DNA of 6,918 bases from Candidatus Gerdarchaeota archaeon (GTDB taxonomy: Archaea > Asgardarchaeota > Heimdallarchaeia > JABLTI01): assembly GCA_016840945.1 (NCBI GenBank), contig JAEORJ010000352.1:1-6918 (forward strand), in the 5' to 3' direction. Made by a program: the position numbers and the translations under genes. Below the pieces are notes generated by a model. The model was not told where the DNA came from and made no database searches. It worked only from the letters and a program-made list of their open reading frames with translations. Of the stretch, positions 1-6,918 are shown one piece after another. The first letter of the stretch is position 1; every line of letters begins with the position of its first letter.

Positions 1-1
1 A

Positions 2-1366
2 GATGGTGGTATAATCTCAGAATTAGCCTATCCGGTAAACGCTACAATAGGTGATGCCTCTGTTATCTTTAGAGAAATGAGTGATGTTCAACCATGTAAT
101 TTCTCAGCCCCATATGATCCTAATGATGCTGACTATGCTTATAGAGGACAAATTGGTGCTTGGTTGGGATTCTACCCACCTATTGAAGCAATTAGCTATA
201 AACGTAAAATAACAATTGACAATTGGTATTATGCTAAAGTGGAAGAAGAAATAACTATCGAATGTTTTGGCTTAAGACTTGATGAGGTATATGATTTAAT
301 ACATATCGAGACCCTCGTCGGCTATGGATTACAAAGATTCAGTCTTGGTATATGGTATGCTGAAAATGGTAAAGTACATGATGAATTTGGTGATTTAGGA
401 AAACCAACAGGTGCTGCAGATGTGGTCCAAACAAACCAGATTAATATTTATCTAAGGGTTCCAATGATTGGTGGTGACGTCAAAACTATTTATGTCGATT
501 ACAATTTAAAATTAGAGGATCTTCTAGAATTTGATGGAACTGAATATATTCTAAGTACAACTGCTTTACCTGAATGCGACTTCTTTGTTAGAAACTTTGA
601 ACTTGAATTAATCTTCCCACAAGGTTCAAAATTCCAATATTTAACCTTTGGTAATCAAGAAGTTGATTATAATACAGACTATGTATTTTCATTCTTGAAA
701 TTAGGTAGAAGACAATCAGTTGATTTCACTGCAACAAATCTCACAAGCTACGATGACATGTCCTTAAAGCTTGGTTATTATATGAATGACCTCGCTATTT
801 ACATCCAACCCTTAACATTCATGTTGATTATTTTCGTTGCCTGTTTACTCTACATCGGAGTAAGAACTCTACGAAAAGATGTCATAGAAAAAGTAATTAT
901 TGTACCAGAAGTAACTGCTGAAATACCAATAGAATTAATTCAATCTTTCGTTGAACAATATGAAGAAAAGACCGCTTTACAGACTCGAATAACAAATCTC
1001 GATGAAGATCGACGAAGAAAGAAAATCAAAGCAAAAGAATACGATCAACAAAGAAAGATTTTGGAATCAAAGATGCGAGAATTGATCAAGAAACTTGATT
1101 TAACTAAGAGACAACTCAAAGAAAAAGGTCGCAAATATTTCGATGTAATTCAAAAAATTGAAGTTAGTGAAGAAAAACGTACAAGTGTAGAAAGAAGCAT
1201 TCAAGATTTAAGATTTAGATATATTCGTGAAAAACAAATCTCTAAAGATGCTTACATTCGAATCTTACGTGATTATCAAAACCAAATTGAGAGATTTGAA
1301 CGTGATATCGATAAAGAAATCATTAACTTAAGGTTATTAATAGAACACGAATCAAAAGAAGTGTAA
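2..1366 (+). CDS. Ribophorin I (OST1)-like oligosaccharyltransferase subunit, 5'-truncated by the window edge
   Basis: Frame 2 is open from the first bases to the TAA at 1364, giving 454 residues. The first in-frame ATG (77) is internal: coding-quality sequence runs upstream of it to the edge without a stop, so the true start is outside. I recognise the second luminal domain of ribophorin I. The stretch at 200-259 (KRKITIDNW then AKVEEEITI) resembles the domain-opening strand and its conserved VEE. At 455-508, RVPMIGGDVKTIYVDYNL closely tracks human RFPLFGGWKTHYIVGYNL (recalled from memory). At 605-631, ELIFPQGSK matches a KIILPEGAK-type strand. One TM helix lies at about 809-862, followed by a Lys/Arg/Glu-rich coiled-coil tail of about 167 residues (863-1363). 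Ribophorin I supports STT3 in N-glycosylation. The order predicts an external N-terminus and a cytosolic tail. Two Asn-X-Thr sequons (Asn codons at 38 and 737) lie in the external part. A tandem TAA TGA ends the gene. The family call is firm; assembly into an OST complex is inferred. Confidence 0.85.
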   Translation, partial: DGGIISELAYPVNATIGDASVIFREMSDVQPCNFSAPYDPNDADYAYRGQIGAWLGFYPPIEAISYKRKITIDNWYYAKVEEEITIECFGLRLDEVYDLIHIETLVGYGLQRFSLGIWYAENGKVHDEFGDLGKPTGAADVVQTNQINIYLRVPMIGGDVKTIYVDYNLKLEDLLEFDGTEYILSTTALPECDFFVRNFELELIFPQGSKFQYLTFGNQEVDYNTDYVFSFLKLGRRQSVDFTATNLTSYDDMSLKLGYYMNDLAIYIQPLTFMLIIFVACLLYIGVRTLRKDVIEKVIIVPEVTAEIPIELIQSFVEQYEEKTALQTRITNLDEDRRRKKIKAKEYDQQRKILESKMRELIKKLDLTKRQLKEKGRKYFDVIQKIEVSEEKRTSVERSIQDLRFRYIREKQISKDAYIRILRDYQNQIERFERDIDKEIINLRLLIEHESKEV

Positions 1367-1377
1367 TGAATATTACT

Positions 1378-1440
1378 CTTCCCATTTTCTTTTATTTTTT
1401 TTATATTAATGAAAAAATTAGTGGGTAAATTATTTTACCC
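1378..1440. terminator. Convergent terminator zone: plus-strand T-tracts and a minus-strand hairpin with T-run
   Basis: Downstream of the ribophorin-like gene the plus strand has a pyrimidine run with dense T-tracts (about 1384-1402), the usual archaeal termination signal. For the opposing acetyltransferase gene, an 8-bp perfect stem TGGGTAAA/TTTACCCA (1422-1429 with 1434-1441, loop of four bases) spans its stop codon. On the minus strand it is followed within a few bases by TTTTTT (complement of the A run at 1412-1417). Both transcripts therefore appear to end within about 60 bases of each other. Confidence 0.6.
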
Positions 1441-2014
1441 AACCTTTCATTATTCTTTCACAATTTTCACAAACAAATTTAGAAGTGTCGACTTTTCCTT
1501 CTGGAATGGGGAATTTAGTTAATCCACACTTGCAAACATATCCTCGTAATCTGGCTGGATTACCAAAAACTAATGCATGTGGTGGAACATCCTTTGTTAC
1601 CACACTTCCTGAACCAATCATGCAAAACTCTCCTAAGGTAACACCACATACAATAACTGAATTAGCTCCGATTGATACACCATCTTCAACTTTTGTTTCA
1701 GTTATTTTCCATTCTTGATTAAAAGCCCTTGGATACAAATCATTTGTAAAGACCATGTGAGGTCCTAAGAAAACATTATTTCCAACTGTAACACCATGGT
1801 AAACTGAAACTCTATTCTGAATTTTTACGTTATGACCAATTTTAACTCCAGCATCAATATAGACATCTTTGCCTAAAATACAGTTCTTACCTAATTCTGT
1901 ATTTGTTCTTACATGAGCATGGTGCCAAATACTAGTTCCTTCGCCAATTTTAGCTCCATCCTCAACAATTGCTGTGGGATGAATTCTTACATTTTTCCAT
2001 TTTTCATCGCTCAT
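1430..2014 (-). CDS. WbpD/WlbB-like sugar-nucleotide N-acetyltransferase (left-handed beta-helix) with zinc-ribbon-like C-terminus
   Basis: From the ATG at 2014 the product is 194 residues. Residues of the type IHPTAIVEDGAKIGEGTSIW, then repeated I/V-G-x-x-x hexapeptides, form a left-handed beta-helix. IQNRVSVY, GPHMVFTND-YPRA and FGNPAR are characteristic of the WbpD/WlbB group, which acetylates the 3-amino group of UDP-2-acetamido-3-amino-2,3-dideoxyglucuronate using acetyl-CoA in the cytoplasm. The product sugar occurs in bacterial O-antigens and methanogen N-glycans. Four cysteines (C161, C163, C182, C185; CKCG ... CENC) suggest a small zinc ribbon. The frame extends up to an ATG at 2056, but that overlaps the upstream gene by 38 bases and adds a non-conserved extension. 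The 2014 start lies 4 bases after the upstream stop and places the conserved domain at the usual distance. The exact substrate is inferred; other 3- or 4-amino sugar acetyltransferases share the fold. Confidence 0.85.
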   Translation of the reverse strand: MSDEKWKNVRIHPTAIVEDGAKIGEGTSIWHHAHVRTNTELGKNCILGKDVYIDAGVKIGHNVKIQNRVSVYHGVTVGNNVFLGPHMVFTNDLYPRAFNQEWKITETKVEDGVSIGANSVIVCGVTLGEFCMIGSGSVVTKDVPPHALVFGNPARLRGYVCKCGLTKFPIPEGKVDTSKFVCENCERIMKGWVK

Positions 2015-2018
2015 ATGA

Positions 2019-2312
2019 TTAACTTCCATTAGTATCGTTTTGAGTTTTTTCCTCATTCCATTCTTTCTCTATTATTTCCTCTTCAGCATGATTTTCTTTT
2101 TCTATTTTTCCAGCTTTCTCTTTTTTCCATTCGCGAACAATTAAGAAAATCTCTAAAGCCATAAAAGCAACAAGAATCACATCCATTATTACAAAAAGAT
2201 AAGTTATTTCTGGCATTATTCTTAAAGTTCGTACTTGAATAACGATAAGTGCTGGTAATAATGCAAAAAAAGTAATAATACTAGCAATGGAGAAAATTCT
2301 TTTGCTATTCAT
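2019..2312 (-). CDS. Small two-TM membrane protein with charged cytoplasmic tail, unknown function
   Basis: 97 residues from the ATG at 2312. TM1 is at about residues 6-26 and TM2 at about 36-59. A highly charged tail (60-97) is rich in Glu and Lys and probably helical or disordered. With two TM helices, both termini should be on the same side, and the basic residues near the N-terminus and after TM2 favour the cytoplasm. A GTG at 2321 would add three residues, but it is better read as part of a Shine-Dalgarno: GTGAT (2321-2317 on the minus strand) complements the 16S rRNA end and sits 4 bases before the ATG. The stop is 4 bases upstream of the acetyltransferase start, so the two are almost certainly co-transcribed and probably translationally coupled. 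I recognise no family. A membrane anchor or partner for the sugar-modifying enzyme is only a suggestion from context. Confidence 0.7.
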   Translation of the reverse strand: MNSKRIFSIASIITFFALLPALIVIQVRTLRIMPEITYLFVIMDVILVAFMALEIFLIVREWKKEKAGKIEKENHAEEEIIEKEWNEEKTQNDTNGS

Positions 2313-2316
2313 TAAA

Positions 2317-2321
2317 ATCAC
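2317..2321 (-). promoter_or_regulatory. Shine-Dalgarno deciding the start of the two-TM protein
   Basis: On the minus strand GTGAT, the 3' end of the archaeal consensus GGAGGTGAT, lies 4 bases before the ATG at 2312. It overlaps the alternative GTG codon, which argues that the ATG is the true start. Confidence 0.45.
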
Positions 2322-2462
2322 TCTAGTAGTTTTATTAATGGTATTTTAACTCTATGGAAAGATTAACATTTAAATTAATTTTTTTATGGAATTAATCTTG
2401 CATTTTAATAATATGAACTCAAAATCAAGATTAATGAGTATATGATTGTAGTTGGTAATTCA
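2322..2462. promoter_or_regulatory. Divergent promoter region with a perfect 10-bp inverted repeat
   Basis: This AT-rich spacer separates the minus-strand operon from the plus-strand methylthiotransferase. For the plus gene a TATA-like TTTTAATAATA (2403-2413) lies upstream; transcription would start around 2435-2440. A perfect inverted repeat ATTAATCTTG (2391-2400) and CAAGATTAAT (2426-2435) flanks this box. A further AAGATTAA (2359-2366) repeats the right arm's core on the minus-gene side. For the minus operon a TTTAAAT box (minus strand, about 2375-2369) is a weak candidate. The arms are centred about 35 bases apart, compatible with a regulator bound on both sides of the TATA box, but the low complexity of the DNA makes chance repeats plausible. 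Confidence 0.35.
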
Positions 2463-3740
2463 ATGATAAGTTATTTTATTGAAACATTTGGTTGTACTGC
2501 TAATACTGCAGCATCTGAATTAATGAGTTACTTATTACAAGAATGTGGTTATCAAAAAACAACTGATATAGAAAAAGCGACTTTTGCTGTTATAAATACT
2601 TGTATTGTAAAAGCTCCCACTGAAAGCAAAATCAAAGTTCGATTATTAAACCTCTCTGAAAAATTACCATTAATTATAACAGGTTGTTTACCTCAAGTTC
2701 TACATGATTGGTGTAAAGAAAAAATTCCGCAAGCAGTATTGTTAGGAGTTGATCATTTTTTTGATATTTGTCTGGCTGCAAAGGAATTACTATCAGACAA
2801 TACAGTAGAATATCTAACAAGGCAAGAGAAATTTAGCACTGAAACTTCTCGAGATAGAACCAGAGATTTAACAGGGATAATTGAAATTTCAAAAGGCTGT
2901 ACAGGTGAATGTGCCTATTGTATTGTTCGAATAGCCAAAGGAAAATTAGTTTCAAAATCAAAAAATCAAATACTAGCAGAAGCTCATAAAGCAATTTCAG
3001 AAGGTTGTAAAGAATTATGGCTTACAGCTCAAGATACTGCTTCATATGGATTTGATATTAATTCAAGTTTACCTGAAATCGTTAATGAAATAGCAAATAT
3101 TGATGGCGAGTTTATGATTAGAATGGGGATGATGAATGCTGATTATGCATTGAAAGTGCTTCCTGCTCTTAAGAAAATATTACAGAATTCAAAAGTATAT
3201 GCTTTCCTTCATATCCCTGGTCAATCTGGTAGTAATAGTATCCTAAAGGAAATGAAGAGAAAATATACGATTGAAGAATTCATTAATCTAATAAAAGAAC
3301 TACGACAAACAACTTCATTTACATTATCAACAGACATAATTGCTGGATTCCCAGGTGAGACATTAGAAGATCATAAAGATTCCATTAAATTATTAACTGA
3401 CATAAGTTTTGATATTGTTAATATCTCAAAATATACTGATAGAAAAGGAACAGTTGCTAGCCATTCTAAAAATAAATTGCCTACTGAGATTATTAAGGAG
3501 CGCTCAAAAGAAATAAGTTCTATAGTAAAAGAAATGACTCTGCAAAAAAATAAACAATGGATTGATTGGAGAGGACCTGCACTTGCTCTTGAACATGAAA
3601 ATAACGAAAGAGACACAGTCTTACGAAATAGAAATTATAAGAAAATTGTAGTGAAAAATCAAACATTAAATTTAGGTCAATACTATAACGTTAAAATAAT
3701 ACAAGCTCAAAAAACTAGATTAATTGGCAAATTACTTTAA
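2463..3740 (+). CDS. tRNA (t6A37) C2-methylthiotransferase, archaeal MtaB / CDKAL1 type
   Basis: 425 residues from the ATG at 2463; the family is usually about 420. The enzyme converts t6A37 to ms2t6A37 in ANN-decoding tRNAs, using S-adenosylmethionine and two Fe-S clusters. The N-terminal methylthiotransferase domain opens with YFIETFGC and carries the three cluster cysteines C11, C47 (NTC) and C75 (TGC). The radical-SAM triad CTGECAYC gives C146, C150 and C153. LWLTAQDTASYG is a signature of the CDKAL1/MtaB branch rather than bacterial MiaB or RimO. The last 60 or so residues form a TRAM domain for tRNA binding. An in-frame ATG at 2442 would add seven residues. I prefer 2463 because family members begin just before the IET-GC motif and because GGTAAT, one mismatch from GGTGAT, lies 3 bases before it. 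No residue loss is seen. The 60-base gap to the PHP gene leaves co-transcription open. Confidence 0.93.
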   Translation: MISYFIETFGCTANTAASELMSYLLQECGYQKTTDIEKATFAVINTCIVKAPTESKIKVRLLNLSEKLPLIITGCLPQVLHDWCKEKIPQAVLLGVDHFFDICLAAKELLSDNTVEYLTRQEKFSTETSRDRTRDLTGIIEISKGCTGECAYCIVRIAKGKLVSKSKNQILAEAHKAISEGCKELWLTAQDTASYGFDINSSLPEIVNEIANIDGEFMIRMGMMNADYALKVLPALKKILQNSKVYAFLHIPGQSGSNSILKEMKRKYTIEEFINLIKELRQTTSFTLSTDIIAGFPGETLEDHKDSIKLLTDISFDIVNISKYTDRKGTVASHSKNKLPTEIIKERSKEISSIVKEMTLQKNKQWIDWRGPALALEHENNERDTVLRNRNYKKIVVKNQTLNLGQYYNVKIIQAQKTRLIGKLL

Positions 3741-3747
3741 CAAATAA

Positions 3748-3793
3748 TTACATAATATCATATACTCTAATGAAATACAGCTAAAGATAGAGG
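3748..3793 (+). promoter_or_regulatory. Possible TATA box and Shine-Dalgarno of the PHP gene
   Basis: The 60-base spacer holds an AT-rich TTACATAATATCATAT stretch (3748-3763) that could serve as a TATA box, with initiation near 3780. It also holds a GAGG Shine-Dalgarno (3790-3793) 7 bases before the ATG. No T-tract terminator separates it from the preceding methylthiotransferase, so read-through transcription is equally possible. The Shine-Dalgarno is convincing, the TATA box less so. Confidence 0.35.
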
Positions 3794-3800
3794 AAAACAG

Positions 3801-4535
3801 ATGGTAAGAATAGATCTACATGTCCACACTAACTATTCAGATGGCGTTGATTCACCTGTAGAAATCATTCGCCAAGCAGAAAAGATGTGTCTAGATGGCA
3901 TTGGGATTACTGATCATGATACTTTTGAAGGATTACATGAAGCACTAGAAATTGAGACAGAGTTAATAATTGTTCCCGGCATAGAAGTATCAACATGTAA
4001 AGGACATATTCTTGCTTATGGTATTTTTGAAGGGGATCTTGAGCTTGGTTTAACACCCAAAGAGACAGTTGATAAAATACATCGATTGGGAGGAATAGCT
4101 ATACCTGCGCATCCATTTGATTACATCCGATTGGGCATAAAAGATGAGATTTACAAAATCGATTCGGATGCTATAGAAACAATTAATGGTTGCATTACTA
4201 TGCCTATATTTAACAAAAAAGCACATGAAGCAGCTTTAAAGTTAGATTTGCCTATGATTGGTGGGAGTGATGGTCATTCAACTGAGGAAATTGGAAATGC
4301 TTGGACAAATTTCTTAACCCCGCCAGAAACTTGGGAAGATGTAATTTCAATGATATTGAAAAAAGAATGCATTCCTATTGGTGGCAGACATCCTGTGTTA
4401 CCTTCCAAAGTTAAACGATTTTGGAAAGCTTATAAAAAACGAAAAGTACGTCCAACACCTTATCCTTGGATAAAAAATCCTAAAAGGAATCATCTATCAT
4501 CAGATGAAGATGGTAGCGAAGAAGATGATGAATAA
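3801..4535 (+). CDS. PHP-domain metal-dependent phosphoesterase with acidic C-terminal tail
   Basis: 244 residues. The metal-binding set of the PHP superfamily is complete in order: H7 and H9 (DLHVHT), D14 (YSDG), D38/H39 (TDHD), E62 (PGIEVS), H69 (GHILAYG), H104 (PAHPFD), D157 and H159 (GSDGH). This pattern belongs to the small stand-alone PHP proteins related to bacterial YciV/TrpH (RNase AM). Those hydrolyse phosphate from short oligonucleotides or 3',5'-bisphosphonucleotides with divalent metals, so a cytoplasmic hydrolase is expected. After the core, a basic segment (about residues 204-230, with KAYKKRKVR) leads into an acidic end (DEDGSEEDDE). That basic-then-acidic tail is not part of the catalytic fold. 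The start is supported by GAGG 7 bases upstream and by the position of HxH near the N-terminus. Its stop lies one base from the stop of the opposing gene. The substrate cannot be read from sequence. Confidence 0.88.
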   Translation: MVRIDLHVHTNYSDGVDSPVEIIRQAEKMCLDGIGITDHDTFEGLHEALEIETELIIVPGIEVSTCKGHILAYGIFEGDLELGLTPKETVDKIHRLGGIAIPAHPFDYIRLGIKDEIYKIDSDAIETINGCITMPIFNKKAHEAALKLDLPMIGGSDGHSTEEIGNAWTNFLTPPETWEDVISMILKKECIPIGGRHPVLPSKVKRFWKAYKKRKVRPTPYPWIKNPKRNHLSSDEDGSEEDDE

Positions 4536-4536
4536 C

Positions 4537-5619
4537 TTATTTTAGCAATTCTTTCAATTCTGGATCATTCTTTATAAGACTAATTAATAGATTACTTGGT
4601 TTCTCCAATTTTGTTAGTAATTGAGTAGTATTTTTATGGTAATCTTTAGGTTGAGAGCAAATTTTCTTGATTAGTTTTTTAGTTTCTTCCATTGTTTGTG
4701 CAGAAAAACTTGGAAACCCTTTTTCTTCAATGAATTTTTGTGGTTCTAAGTGTCGCCAAAAATAAGTAATCGAAGGAATGCCAAGTAAAGCAGCTTCTCG
4801 ACCCATTGTTCCCCCACCAGTAATAACAACTTCAGCATTGCAAAACATCTTCAAATAGAAATAACCTTTCGGTGGAATCTCAATTTCGCCATCAAATTCA
4901 GTTAAAATAACTTGTCTTTGTTTTTCATATCGAGGTAAAACTAGTATTTTATTGCTGTAATTATTTTTCAATTCTCTAAGAATTTCAAGGTACGGTTTTG
5001 CATCTTTATCTTTCATATAAGAAGCGAAGCTTTCTTCTGGTCGAAATATTACATATTTTTCTTGTTTGTAACATTCTCTGTACTCTTTCAATTGCTTCAA
5101 GCTTTCATGAGTAATATATTCATTTTCATCAACCCCTTGATATTGATGGATAATCTCAGGTTGAGCACCAAGTTTGGTAAAATCATTTTTATTTATACAG
5201 GAGGGGGTGATAAGATATCTTGCTAAAGAGAAAGTCAATTTTGCTACTGGAATAGAATGAGCAGTATCATTCATGAGGATAATTGGAATTGCTAATCCAA
5301 AAGCAATTCTAGTAGCATCAGGTGAAGAGAATGATATGGCAATAGATGGCCTAATATTCTTTTTAATGAAATGTTTAGAAATATCGAGGACTCTTTTAGC
5401 ACTTGCGATTAATTTCTCATCTAAATCCTTACCACCATAACTGCCATAGCTTAGAGGTTTGATATTATAATGTTTAAAGATATCAAGAATATAATCATGA
5501 TTTCTAGTAGTATAAATTGATTCAAATCCTAATTGGGTTAATTTTTTACCTATTGCTATAAATAACATTGCTTGTTTTGGAGTAAGAACATCAAACCAGA
5601 TTAATTTATTATTAACCAT
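4537..5619 (-). CDS. DUF354 family protein, GT-B / UDP-GlcNAc 2-epimerase-like fold
   Basis: 360 residues, close to the usual family length. The N-terminal half has the DUF354 pattern: IWFDVLTPKQAMLF at the start, TTRNHDY (37-43), a KL..S.KRVL helix (69-78), and a SFSSPDATRIAF segment (96-107) followed by PIILMNDTAH. The C-terminal half carries FRPEESF (192-198), LVLPRYEKQR (227-235) and the strongly conserved GGGTMGREAALLGIP (268-282), a nucleotide-sugar-type loop as in GT-B proteins. The family is widespread in archaea and lacks a settled biochemical function. A role in surface-glycan or sugar-nucleotide metabolism is inferred from the fold. Its ATG overlaps the preceding gene by 8 bases (ATGGTTAA), indicating an operon with translational coupling. 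No signal peptide or TM helix is evident, so it should be cytoplasmic. Confidence 0.85.
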   Translation of the reverse strand: MVNNKLIWFDVLTPKQAMLFIAIGKKLTQLGFESIYTTRNHDYILDIFKHYNIKPLSYGSYGGKDLDEKLIASAKRVLDISKHFIKKNIRPSIAISFSSPDATRIAFGLAIPIILMNDTAHSIPVAKLTFSLARYLITPSCINKNDFTKLGAQPEIIHQYQGVDENEYITHESLKQLKEYRECYKQEKYVIFRPEESFASYMKDKDAKPYLEILRELKNNYSNKILVLPRYEKQRQVILTEFDGEIEIPPKGYFYLKMFCNAEVVITGGGTMGREAALLGIPSITYFWRHLEPQKFIEEKGFPSFSAQTMEETKKLIKKICSQPKDYHKNTTQLLTKLEKPSNLLISLIKNDPELKELLK

Positions 5620-5959
5620 TAACTTCTTCCAACTTTATGCCATTTTTCTCCATATAGGTTAAGTCCTCTCGGAAGAATGCCTTGATTAAAGCATTCCAAA
5701 CGATTAGCCAATATAAAAACAATAACCCTGCGAATAGAATCGTTACTACCCCAAAAGTAAGGGGATAACTATTTTGAATATTGAGTAATCCCTTAGGATC
5801 AAAGAATATGAAGTAGATAAATGTAATAATTAAAAGTAAGAAAATCCAAACAATCGATATAGCTTTAACAGGACCTAAACTTGCCTGAAGAATTTTATTA
5901 GATTTAATATTGATTCTCTTAAATTTATCAAACCTTGAAGTTTTAGTATTATCAGTCAT
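5612..5959 (-). CDS. Small two-TM membrane protein upstream of the DUF354 gene, unknown function
   Basis: 115 residues. A basic N-terminal segment (about 1-32, with RFDKFKRINIKSNK) is followed by TM1 (about 35-53, rich in Ile, Leu and Phe) and a short loop with DPKG. TM2 (about 68-88) is followed by a mixed-charge tail of about 25 residues. The basic N-terminus suggests both ends face the cytoplasm. The 3' end overlaps the DUF354 start by 8 bases. A good TATA box about 25 bases before the ATG, with no Shine-Dalgarno, suggests a leaderless mRNA. I recognise no family. Layout and size parallel the other small two-TM gene in this window, although I see no clear sequence similarity between them. 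Partnering with the DUF354 protein at the membrane is a contextual guess. Confidence 0.72.
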   Translation of the reverse strand: MTDNTKTSRFDKFKRINIKSNKILQASLGPVKAISIVWIFLLLIITFIYFIFFDPKGLLNIQNSYPLTFGVVTILFAGLLFLYWLIVWNALIKAFFREDLTYMEKNGIKLEEVNG

Positions 5960-5979
5960 TTAACTAACAACTCTGCAGA

Positions 5980-5987
5980 TTATATAA
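5980..5987 (-). promoter_or_regulatory. TATA box of the two-TM/DUF354 operon, predicting a leaderless transcript
   Basis: TTATATAA is centred about 25 bases upstream of the ATG at 5959 on the minus strand. Archaeal transcription starts about 25 bases after the TATA box, which puts the start at or within a base or two of the A of the ATG. No Shine-Dalgarno lies between them, which fits leaderless translation. Confidence 0.6.
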
Positions 5988-5999
5988 TACATTCACCTT

Positions 6000-6013
6000 A
6001 ACTTTAGAAAGTT
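6000..6013. repeat. Short inverted repeat in the divergent spacer
   Basis: AACTTT and AAAGTT (6000-6005 and 6008-6013) form a 6-bp palindrome with a 2-base spacer between the two divergent promoters. It could be an operator, but in DNA this AT-rich such short palindromes are expected by chance. Confidence 0.2.
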
Positions 6014-6051
6014 TGAGCTATATAATATTTAACTTTTTTTGGTAGAATGCT

Positions 6052-6060
6052 TTTATATAA
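6052..6060 (+). promoter_or_regulatory. TATA box of the peroxiredoxin gene
   Basis: TTTATATAA matches the archaeal TATA consensus well and predicts a transcription start near 6080-6086, leaving a leader of about 30 bases that contains the Shine-Dalgarno. A second AT-rich stretch (TATATAATATTTAA, 6019-6032) lies upstream but would give a longer leader. Confidence 0.6.
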
Positions 6061-6082
6061 CCTCAAAGTTTTATTAACCTAA

Positions 6083-6105
6083 CAAATGTTGCTACATTTG
6101 GAGGT
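6083..6105 (+). promoter_or_regulatory. Perfect 7-bp palindrome at the predicted transcription start, abutting the GGAGGT Shine-Dalgarno
   Basis: CAAATGT (6083-6089) and ACATTTG (6094-6100) form a perfect stem with a 4-base TGCT loop. The final G is also the first base of GGAGGT (6100-6105), a strong Shine-Dalgarno 9 bases before the TTG start codon. The palindrome sits about 25-45 bases downstream of the TATA box. It could be an operator over the start site or a hairpin at the 5' end of the mRNA next to the ribosome site. Confidence 0.5.
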
Positions 6106-6114
6106 TATTTAAAA

Positions 6115-6768
6115 TTGTCAGAAGAAAAACAAGGGTTTCCATTAATAGGTGATAAAGCACCAAGTTTTACTGCAACAACAACCCATGGAAAAATCAATTT
6201 TCCTGATGATTATAAAGGAAAATGGGTAGTATTTTTCTCTCACCCAGCAGATTTCACACCAGTATGTACCACAGAATTTATTGGCTTCCAAAAAAGAAAG
6301 AAGGACTTCGACAGATTAGGTGCATCATTAATTGGATTAAGTGTTGATCAAGTTTATAGTCATATCAAATGGGTAGAATGGATAAAAGAAAAAATGGATG
6401 TCGATATTGAATTTCCTATAATTGCTGATCATGGTCAAATAGGGAAATTATATGGTATGATTCATCCAAATAAATCCTCAAGTACAGTAAGAGCTGTATT
6501 TATTATAGATCCTGAAGGAATTATCAGGGCAATGGTCTATTATCCACCAGAAATGGGACGAAATATGGACGAATTTGTTCGAATAGTTGAAGCATTCCAA
6601 GTGGCTGATAAGAACAAAGTAGCTATGCCAGCGAATTGGCCAAACAATGAAATTCTAAAAGATCGCGTTATCATTCCACCACCACAAGATGTTGAAACAG
6701 CTAAGAAACGACCAAAAGAATATGAATGCTACGACTGGTGGTTGTGCCATAAAGAAAGACCAAAATAA
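6115..6768 (+). CDS. Archaeal peroxiredoxin (Prx6-like, with C-terminal two-cysteine tail)
   Basis: 217 residues. It reduces hydrogen peroxide and organic hydroperoxides in the cytoplasm. The active-site motif [16 protein letters not shown] gives the peroxidatic C51 with T48, and R126 completes the catalytic triad. The C-terminal extension ends in [10 protein letters not shown], with C205 and C211. This 51/205/211 arrangement mirrors the 50/207/213 set known in the Aeropyrum pernix thioredoxin peroxidase, where the last cysteine resolves the sulfenic acid. Members of that group form decamers of dimers. Translation starts at TTG. No in-frame ATG occurs near the conserved N-terminus, and GGAGGT 9 bases upstream supports the TTG. 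The gene has its own promoter and is followed by a strong terminator, so it is probably monocistronic. No oddities are seen in the catalytic core. Confidence 0.95.
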
Positions 6769-6794
6769 GAATAATAATCATTCTACTAAAAAAT

Positions 6795-6838
6795 TAACAG
6801 AGAAAAACTGATTTCTCTGTTATCTTTCCTCTTTTTTT
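6795..6838. terminator. Bidirectional hairpin terminator after the peroxiredoxin gene
   Basis: A perfect 11-bp stem TAACAGAGAAA (6795-6805) / TTTCTCTGTTA (6812-6822) with a 6-base loop is followed by a pyrimidine tract ending in TTTTTTT (6832-6838). On the opposite strand the same stem is followed by AATTTTTT (complement of 6788-6795). It could therefore end transcripts from both sides. Confidence 0.7.
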
Positions 6839-6918
6839 AAGATTAACTGTCTTTATTAGTGATACTTCAATATGATTAGATGAGAAAGATTTTTTTGATG
6901 AAACGATAAAAATACTTC
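6839..6918. other. Window-edge sequence without an assignable gene
   Basis: The plus strand here is broken by stops in all frames. On the minus strand two frames are open from the window edge, to TAA codons at 6858-6856 and 6878-6876 respectively. The bidirectional terminator next to them would suit the 3' end of a convergent gene, but too few residues are present to judge. Confidence 0.25.

Follow-up and report, generated by a model that had tools for sequence, protein, structure and literature searches.

The DNA considered here, referred to as the window, is a stretch of 6,918 nucleotides (positions 1 to 6,918 of the forward strand of contig JAEORJ010000352.1, GenBank assembly GCA_016840945.1, Candidatus Gerdarchaeota archaeon). 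Its first gene encodes OST1 (ribophorin I), a subunit of the oligosaccharyltransferase (OST), in a + strand frame (2-1366) that enters from the left end of the window, is open at its 5′ end and specifies 454 amino acids. We consider it highly probable that this protein is the non-catalytic OST1 of a Heimdallarchaeota-type Asgard oligosaccharyltransferase, and that its four-helix cytosolic tail most likely docks on the large subunit of the ribosome. The parts of the gene, with the basis for each in parentheses, are:

2..1366, + strand: OST1 / ribophorin I gene, 5′ truncated, stop codon at 1364-1366 (open frame, Pfam, relatives)
2..808, + strand: second part of the luminal (outside) beta-sandwich region, residues 1-269 (Pfam, model)
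809..862, + strand: transmembrane (TM) helix, residues 270-287 (hydrophobic sequence, model helix 268-296, relatives' hydropathy)
863..1363, + strand: cytosolic tail, residues 288-454; the bundle matches PDB 8WHN over residues 307-448 (structure and sequence match)
929..1015, + strand: tail helix 1, residues 310-338 (model)
1019..1042, + strand: KKIKAKEY, residues 340-347, across the start of helix 2, the hairpin-1 counterpart of the KDAY turn (model, hhalign)
1031..1126, + strand: tail helix 2, residues 344-375 (model)
1130..1225, + strand: tail helix 3, residues 377-408 (model)
1232..1255, + strand: KQISKDAY, residues 411-418, across the start of helix 4, overlapping KDAYI (1244-1258) (model, alignment)
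1244..1360, + strand: tail helix 4, residues 415-453 (model)

A first-pass annotation, made from the sequence, had proposed a ribophorin-like luminal domain followed by one TM helix at 809-862, and both were borne out. Profile search places the luminal part in Pfam Ribophorin_I (PF04597; E 9.8e-13, residues 137-287, profile positions 285-436 of 437), with a score of 48.4 bits versus a curated cut-off of 25. The predicted luminal structure has the OST1 fold (residues 1-31 and 48-56 are modeled at low confidence), and the best fold match of the whole protein is human ribophorin I. Directly after the luminal domain, residues 270-287 (PLTFMLIIFVACLLYIGV) are hydrophobic and are spanned by a predicted helix at residues 268-296; a hydropathy scan of close relatives calls a TM at the matching place (e.g., residues 496-514 of L004). 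The window begins near residue 227 of the relative L003 and so lacks about 226 N-terminal residues of the protein. The entire gene is present in three close relatives (L001, L002, and L003; 680, 689, and 683 amino acids; best-segment identity 64, 62, and 63%) on contigs of Asgard/Heimdallarchaeota metagenome-assembled genomes (MAGs), and these full-length frames carry a hydrophobic stretch at the start as well as the extra luminal length.

The tail had been described as basic, coiled-coil and about 167 residues long, with KDAYI at 1244-1258. It is indeed 167 amino acids long and net basic (41 K+R and 34 D+E, net +7), with KDAYI beginning at residue 415. Its helical nature was confirmed; the single coiled coil was not, given that both predicted structures contain four helices and neither shows the one uninterrupted helix that a generic single coiled coil would have. 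In sequence and structure the tail matches PDB 8WHN, a crystal structure of the OST1 cytosolic domain from the Lokiarchaeon MK-D1, Candidatus Prometheoarchaeum syntrophicum (Carilo et al. 2024, PMC11417166), at E 3e-13, with 36% identity over 142 residues and a root-mean-square deviation of 2.5 Å. The two proteins share the family, the position of the tail after the TM, the four-helix bundle, and the start of helix 4 (SKAAY in MK-D1, SKDAY in the window protein), and they come from different Asgard lineages.

Mean identity to the window protein over 37 of 42 relatives from protein searches, many of them close kin of one another, is 81% in the tail, 84% in the bundle, and 47% in the luminal part (P0039-P0043 are excluded, as they stop within the tail or short of it). 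In 13 distant OST1 proteins from Asgard, chosen from 33 loci described below, the bundle is 34% and the luminal part 21% identical to the window protein. Because of the 81% tail identity among the 37 relatives and the match to 8WHN, we do not regard the tail as a chance feature. Slow change inside and fast change outside the cell would fit a fixed cytosolic partner, a role for which the ribosome would be the obvious candidate. The two tail hairpins also align with one another (hhalign score 35.8, probability 92.6, 55 columns), with KKIKAKEY placed on KQISKDAY. None of 100 column permutations attained this score (maximum 18.2), and a reversed-half control scored 17.4; these were the controls used, and coiled coils share features by nature. 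The alignment would fit an origin of the tail by duplication of a single helical hairpin.

Ribophorin is listed among proteins universally distributed across Asgard phyla (PMC8813620), and our literature search found no survey of the tail itself across Asgard. At E<=1e-3, PF04597 detected OST1 in 127 of the phylum's 227 genomes. Among the 33 loci that were read (L004-L036, of which L004-L006 duplicate L001-L003), the frame continues for 157-169 residues from the called TM to the stop in 30. In two others (L007 and L032) the contig ends before or within the tail, and in L033, for which no TM was called, the last 160 residues are tail-like. A 20-row tail profile matched 208 of the 227 genomes at E<=1e-3. 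A 23-row profile, for which 22 rows came from 22 of the surveyed phylum genomes, was run against 392 genomes (by an inferred split, all 227 of the phylum plus 165 outside it), with at most nine candidates per genome scored. At E<=1e-3 it matched 228 genomes (210 of 227 in the phylum and 18 of 165 outside), and at E<=1e-14 it matched 204 of 227 versus 0 of 165, the best outside value being 8.4e-8; that a tail match and OST1 share one frame was read for the loci named here. In this survey across Asgard lineages, of a kind suggested by the first-pass annotation, the match in 204 of 227 genomes supports an ancestral origin of the tail.

Three of the 127 genomes with PF04597 gave no tail match (G114, G163, and G179). 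In G114 and G179 the OST1 genes are fragments at contig ends. G163 (L037:1584-3536) encodes a complete OST1 whose tail, comparable in length and helical in appearance, is not recognized by the tail profile, although the full-length Asgard profile extends into it (profile positions 12-604 of 653). The OST1 tail in G169 (L038:3-2102) is likewise helical-looking, with a weak tail-profile match (2.2e-5). The G179 fragment (L041:2783-4123) has the best Ribophorin_I fit of the PF04597 search (E 2.4e-41) and leaves the contig before the TM; it could belong to a lineage that evolves slowly, or it could be foreign DNA within the MAG. Outside the phylum set, two genomes each encode a protein of 303-309 amino acids (L062:3-911 and L063:976-1902) that matches the tail profile in its second half (E 8.4e-8 and 4.6e-6). 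By eye, both proteins combine an outer domain rich in beta structure with one TM and a helical part in the cytosol, and neither has a Ribophorin_I match at E<=0.01.

Thorarchaeota-type genomes show a variant architecture. Among the tail matches listed, at least 43 genomes fall within handles G180-G226, and 42 of the 43 have frames of 822-1233 amino acids around the tail (that of G180, at 588, runs off its contig). Like the window protein, Thorarchaeota-type OST1 has the luminal domain, TM, and tail (in L040, the Asgard OST1 profile covers residues 437-986 of 991, E 5.1e-65); unlike it, there is an N-terminal extension of about 430 residues (e.g., L040:2233-5208, L039:3146-6841), in which Pfam FKBP_C scores above cut-off at 16 of the 18 loci that were read (L039, L040, L046-L061). 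The remaining two are L050, with no Pfam FKBP match at E<=0.01, and L061, which is truncated. Some extensions also match the Ig-like Big_7. PF04597 exceeds its cut-off in only some of these loci (L039 above; L040 and L057 below), and an OST1 profile built without the Thorarchaeota-type group matches all 18, covering the C-terminal part through the tail. PF00254 is present in at least 108 database relatives (among 120 listed of 196 found), several of which are named “FKBP-type peptidyl-prolyl cis-trans isomerase [Candidatus Thorarchaeota archaeon].” Targeted literature searches found no paper on an FKBP-OST1 fusion in Asgard or Thorarchaeota, and among the listed results of a broader search none was evidently on it. 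Human FKBP11 is placed beside OST-A at the secretory translocon in PMC12804085 and described by its authors as a ribosome-binding adaptor whose buried catalytic site argues against a prolyl isomerase role. The parallel between FKBP-OST1 and FKBP11 is suggestive only.

Downstream of OST1, Pfam identifies in the window a hexapeptide acyltransferase, a small membrane protein, and radical SAM/UPF0004, PHP, and DUF354 proteins, and recognizes no OST or translocon genes. By eye, L001-L003 share this gene order, L003 ending within the DUF354 gene. The STT3 gene was seen in relatives, and published Asgard homologs beyond STT3, Ost1, and Ost3 include Ost2, Ost4, Ost5, SWP1, and WBP1 (Eme et al. 2023, PMC10307638). 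In genome G053, a SecY/Sec61 alpha-like gene, named by eye only (L044:4501-5499, + strand), is divergent from OST1 (L044:1581-3671, − strand) and lies ~830 bp from it.

Human ribophorin I (RPN1) in OST-A (PDB 6S7O, 8B6L) resembles the window protein in luminal fold, single TM, and a helical tail of similar length, whereas yeast Ost1 (PDB 6C26, 6EZN) lacks the cytosolic tail. One alternative is that the Asgard and animal tails have no common origin, each being a coiled coil added after the OST1 TM, and became helical bundles by convergence. The human tail alone gives E 9.1 against the Asgard tail in one comparison and is unlisted at E<=10 in the tail-profile search. Both tails belong to one protein family and occupy equivalent positions behind the same TM, and the full-length Asgard profile spans human residues 63-582 in one stretch, with KKDTY (578-582) on the Asgard KDAY turn. 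The human K-D-T-Y-I segment named in the first-pass annotation holds for its first four letters, the I falling beyond the printed alignment. The human tail outscores all 497 scored shuffles, and the 8WHN authors report the same topology for the MK-D1 and human tails (PMC11417166). We consider convergence very unlikely. Another reading, a generic single coiled coil that lacks its own fold and is matched through composition, might be entertained since tropomyosins reach 20.9 bits with the tail profile, and in view of the outside matches at E<=1e-3, but the match to 8WHN speaks against it and makes it scarcely credible.

A subtler possibility is that the tail is homologous throughout but that its native Asgard job is membrane complex assembly (holding SecYE, TRAP, or STT3), ribosome binding being secondary or arising later, toward eukaryotes. 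Conservation of the whole bundle would equally fit any fixed protein partner, and in G053 OST1 does lie near the SecY-like gene. The published pull-down (PMC11417166) covered the MK-D1 and human tails and used human ribosomes only. Against this, the same source reports that the MK-D1 tail binds ribosomes across samples of different purity, that the outer domain does not, and that the human counterpart is labeled the ribosome interacting domain; the tail is also net basic. On balance, we regard a primary role in assembly as unlikely.

We thus favor ribosome docking. The protein's luminal domains and single TM helix would sit in the cell membrane beside STT3, with the net positively charged cytosolic bundle of two similar helical hairpins most likely docking on the large subunit of the ribosome close to the SecYE channel. 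The OST would then be held over the channel exit, where it could act on the emerging chain in step with translation. The present analysis establishes the family, the topology, and the predicted four-helix fold, and shows that the tail is widespread and strongly conserved among Asgard genomes. Binding of human ribosomes was demonstrated by others for the tail from MK-D1, a Lokiarchaeon, and it is by homology to MK-D1 that the Heimdallarchaeota-type window tail would be expected to bind ribosomes, including its own. The suggestion that ribosome-coupled N-glycosylation, or its module, may predate eukaryotes is supported, its central idea being already in print for MK-D1. The OST1 tail was described in 2024 in that related archaeon, and the window is a further example rather than a first discovery.

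More tentatively, the tail, built by duplication of a helical hairpin with a K-x-I-x-x-K/D-x-Y type turn, may already have been fixed in the Asgard common ancestor, inherited by eukaryotes, and later lost in yeast. The Thorarchaeota fusion, with its FKBP-type domain on the outside, might be a translocon subunit combining ribosome grip, glycosylation, and folding in one chain, a prokaryotic parallel to FKBP11. What this analysis chiefly adds is the spread of the tail across Asgard and the FKBP-OST1 fusion; the latter suggests that folding factors, too, were tied early to the translocon. The protein-level half of the wider claim was already published for one Lokiarchaeon: should the docking tail prove ancestral to Asgard, the coupling of the ribosome to the Sec channel and N-glycosylation would predate the endoplasmic reticulum and would have arisen at the cell membrane.
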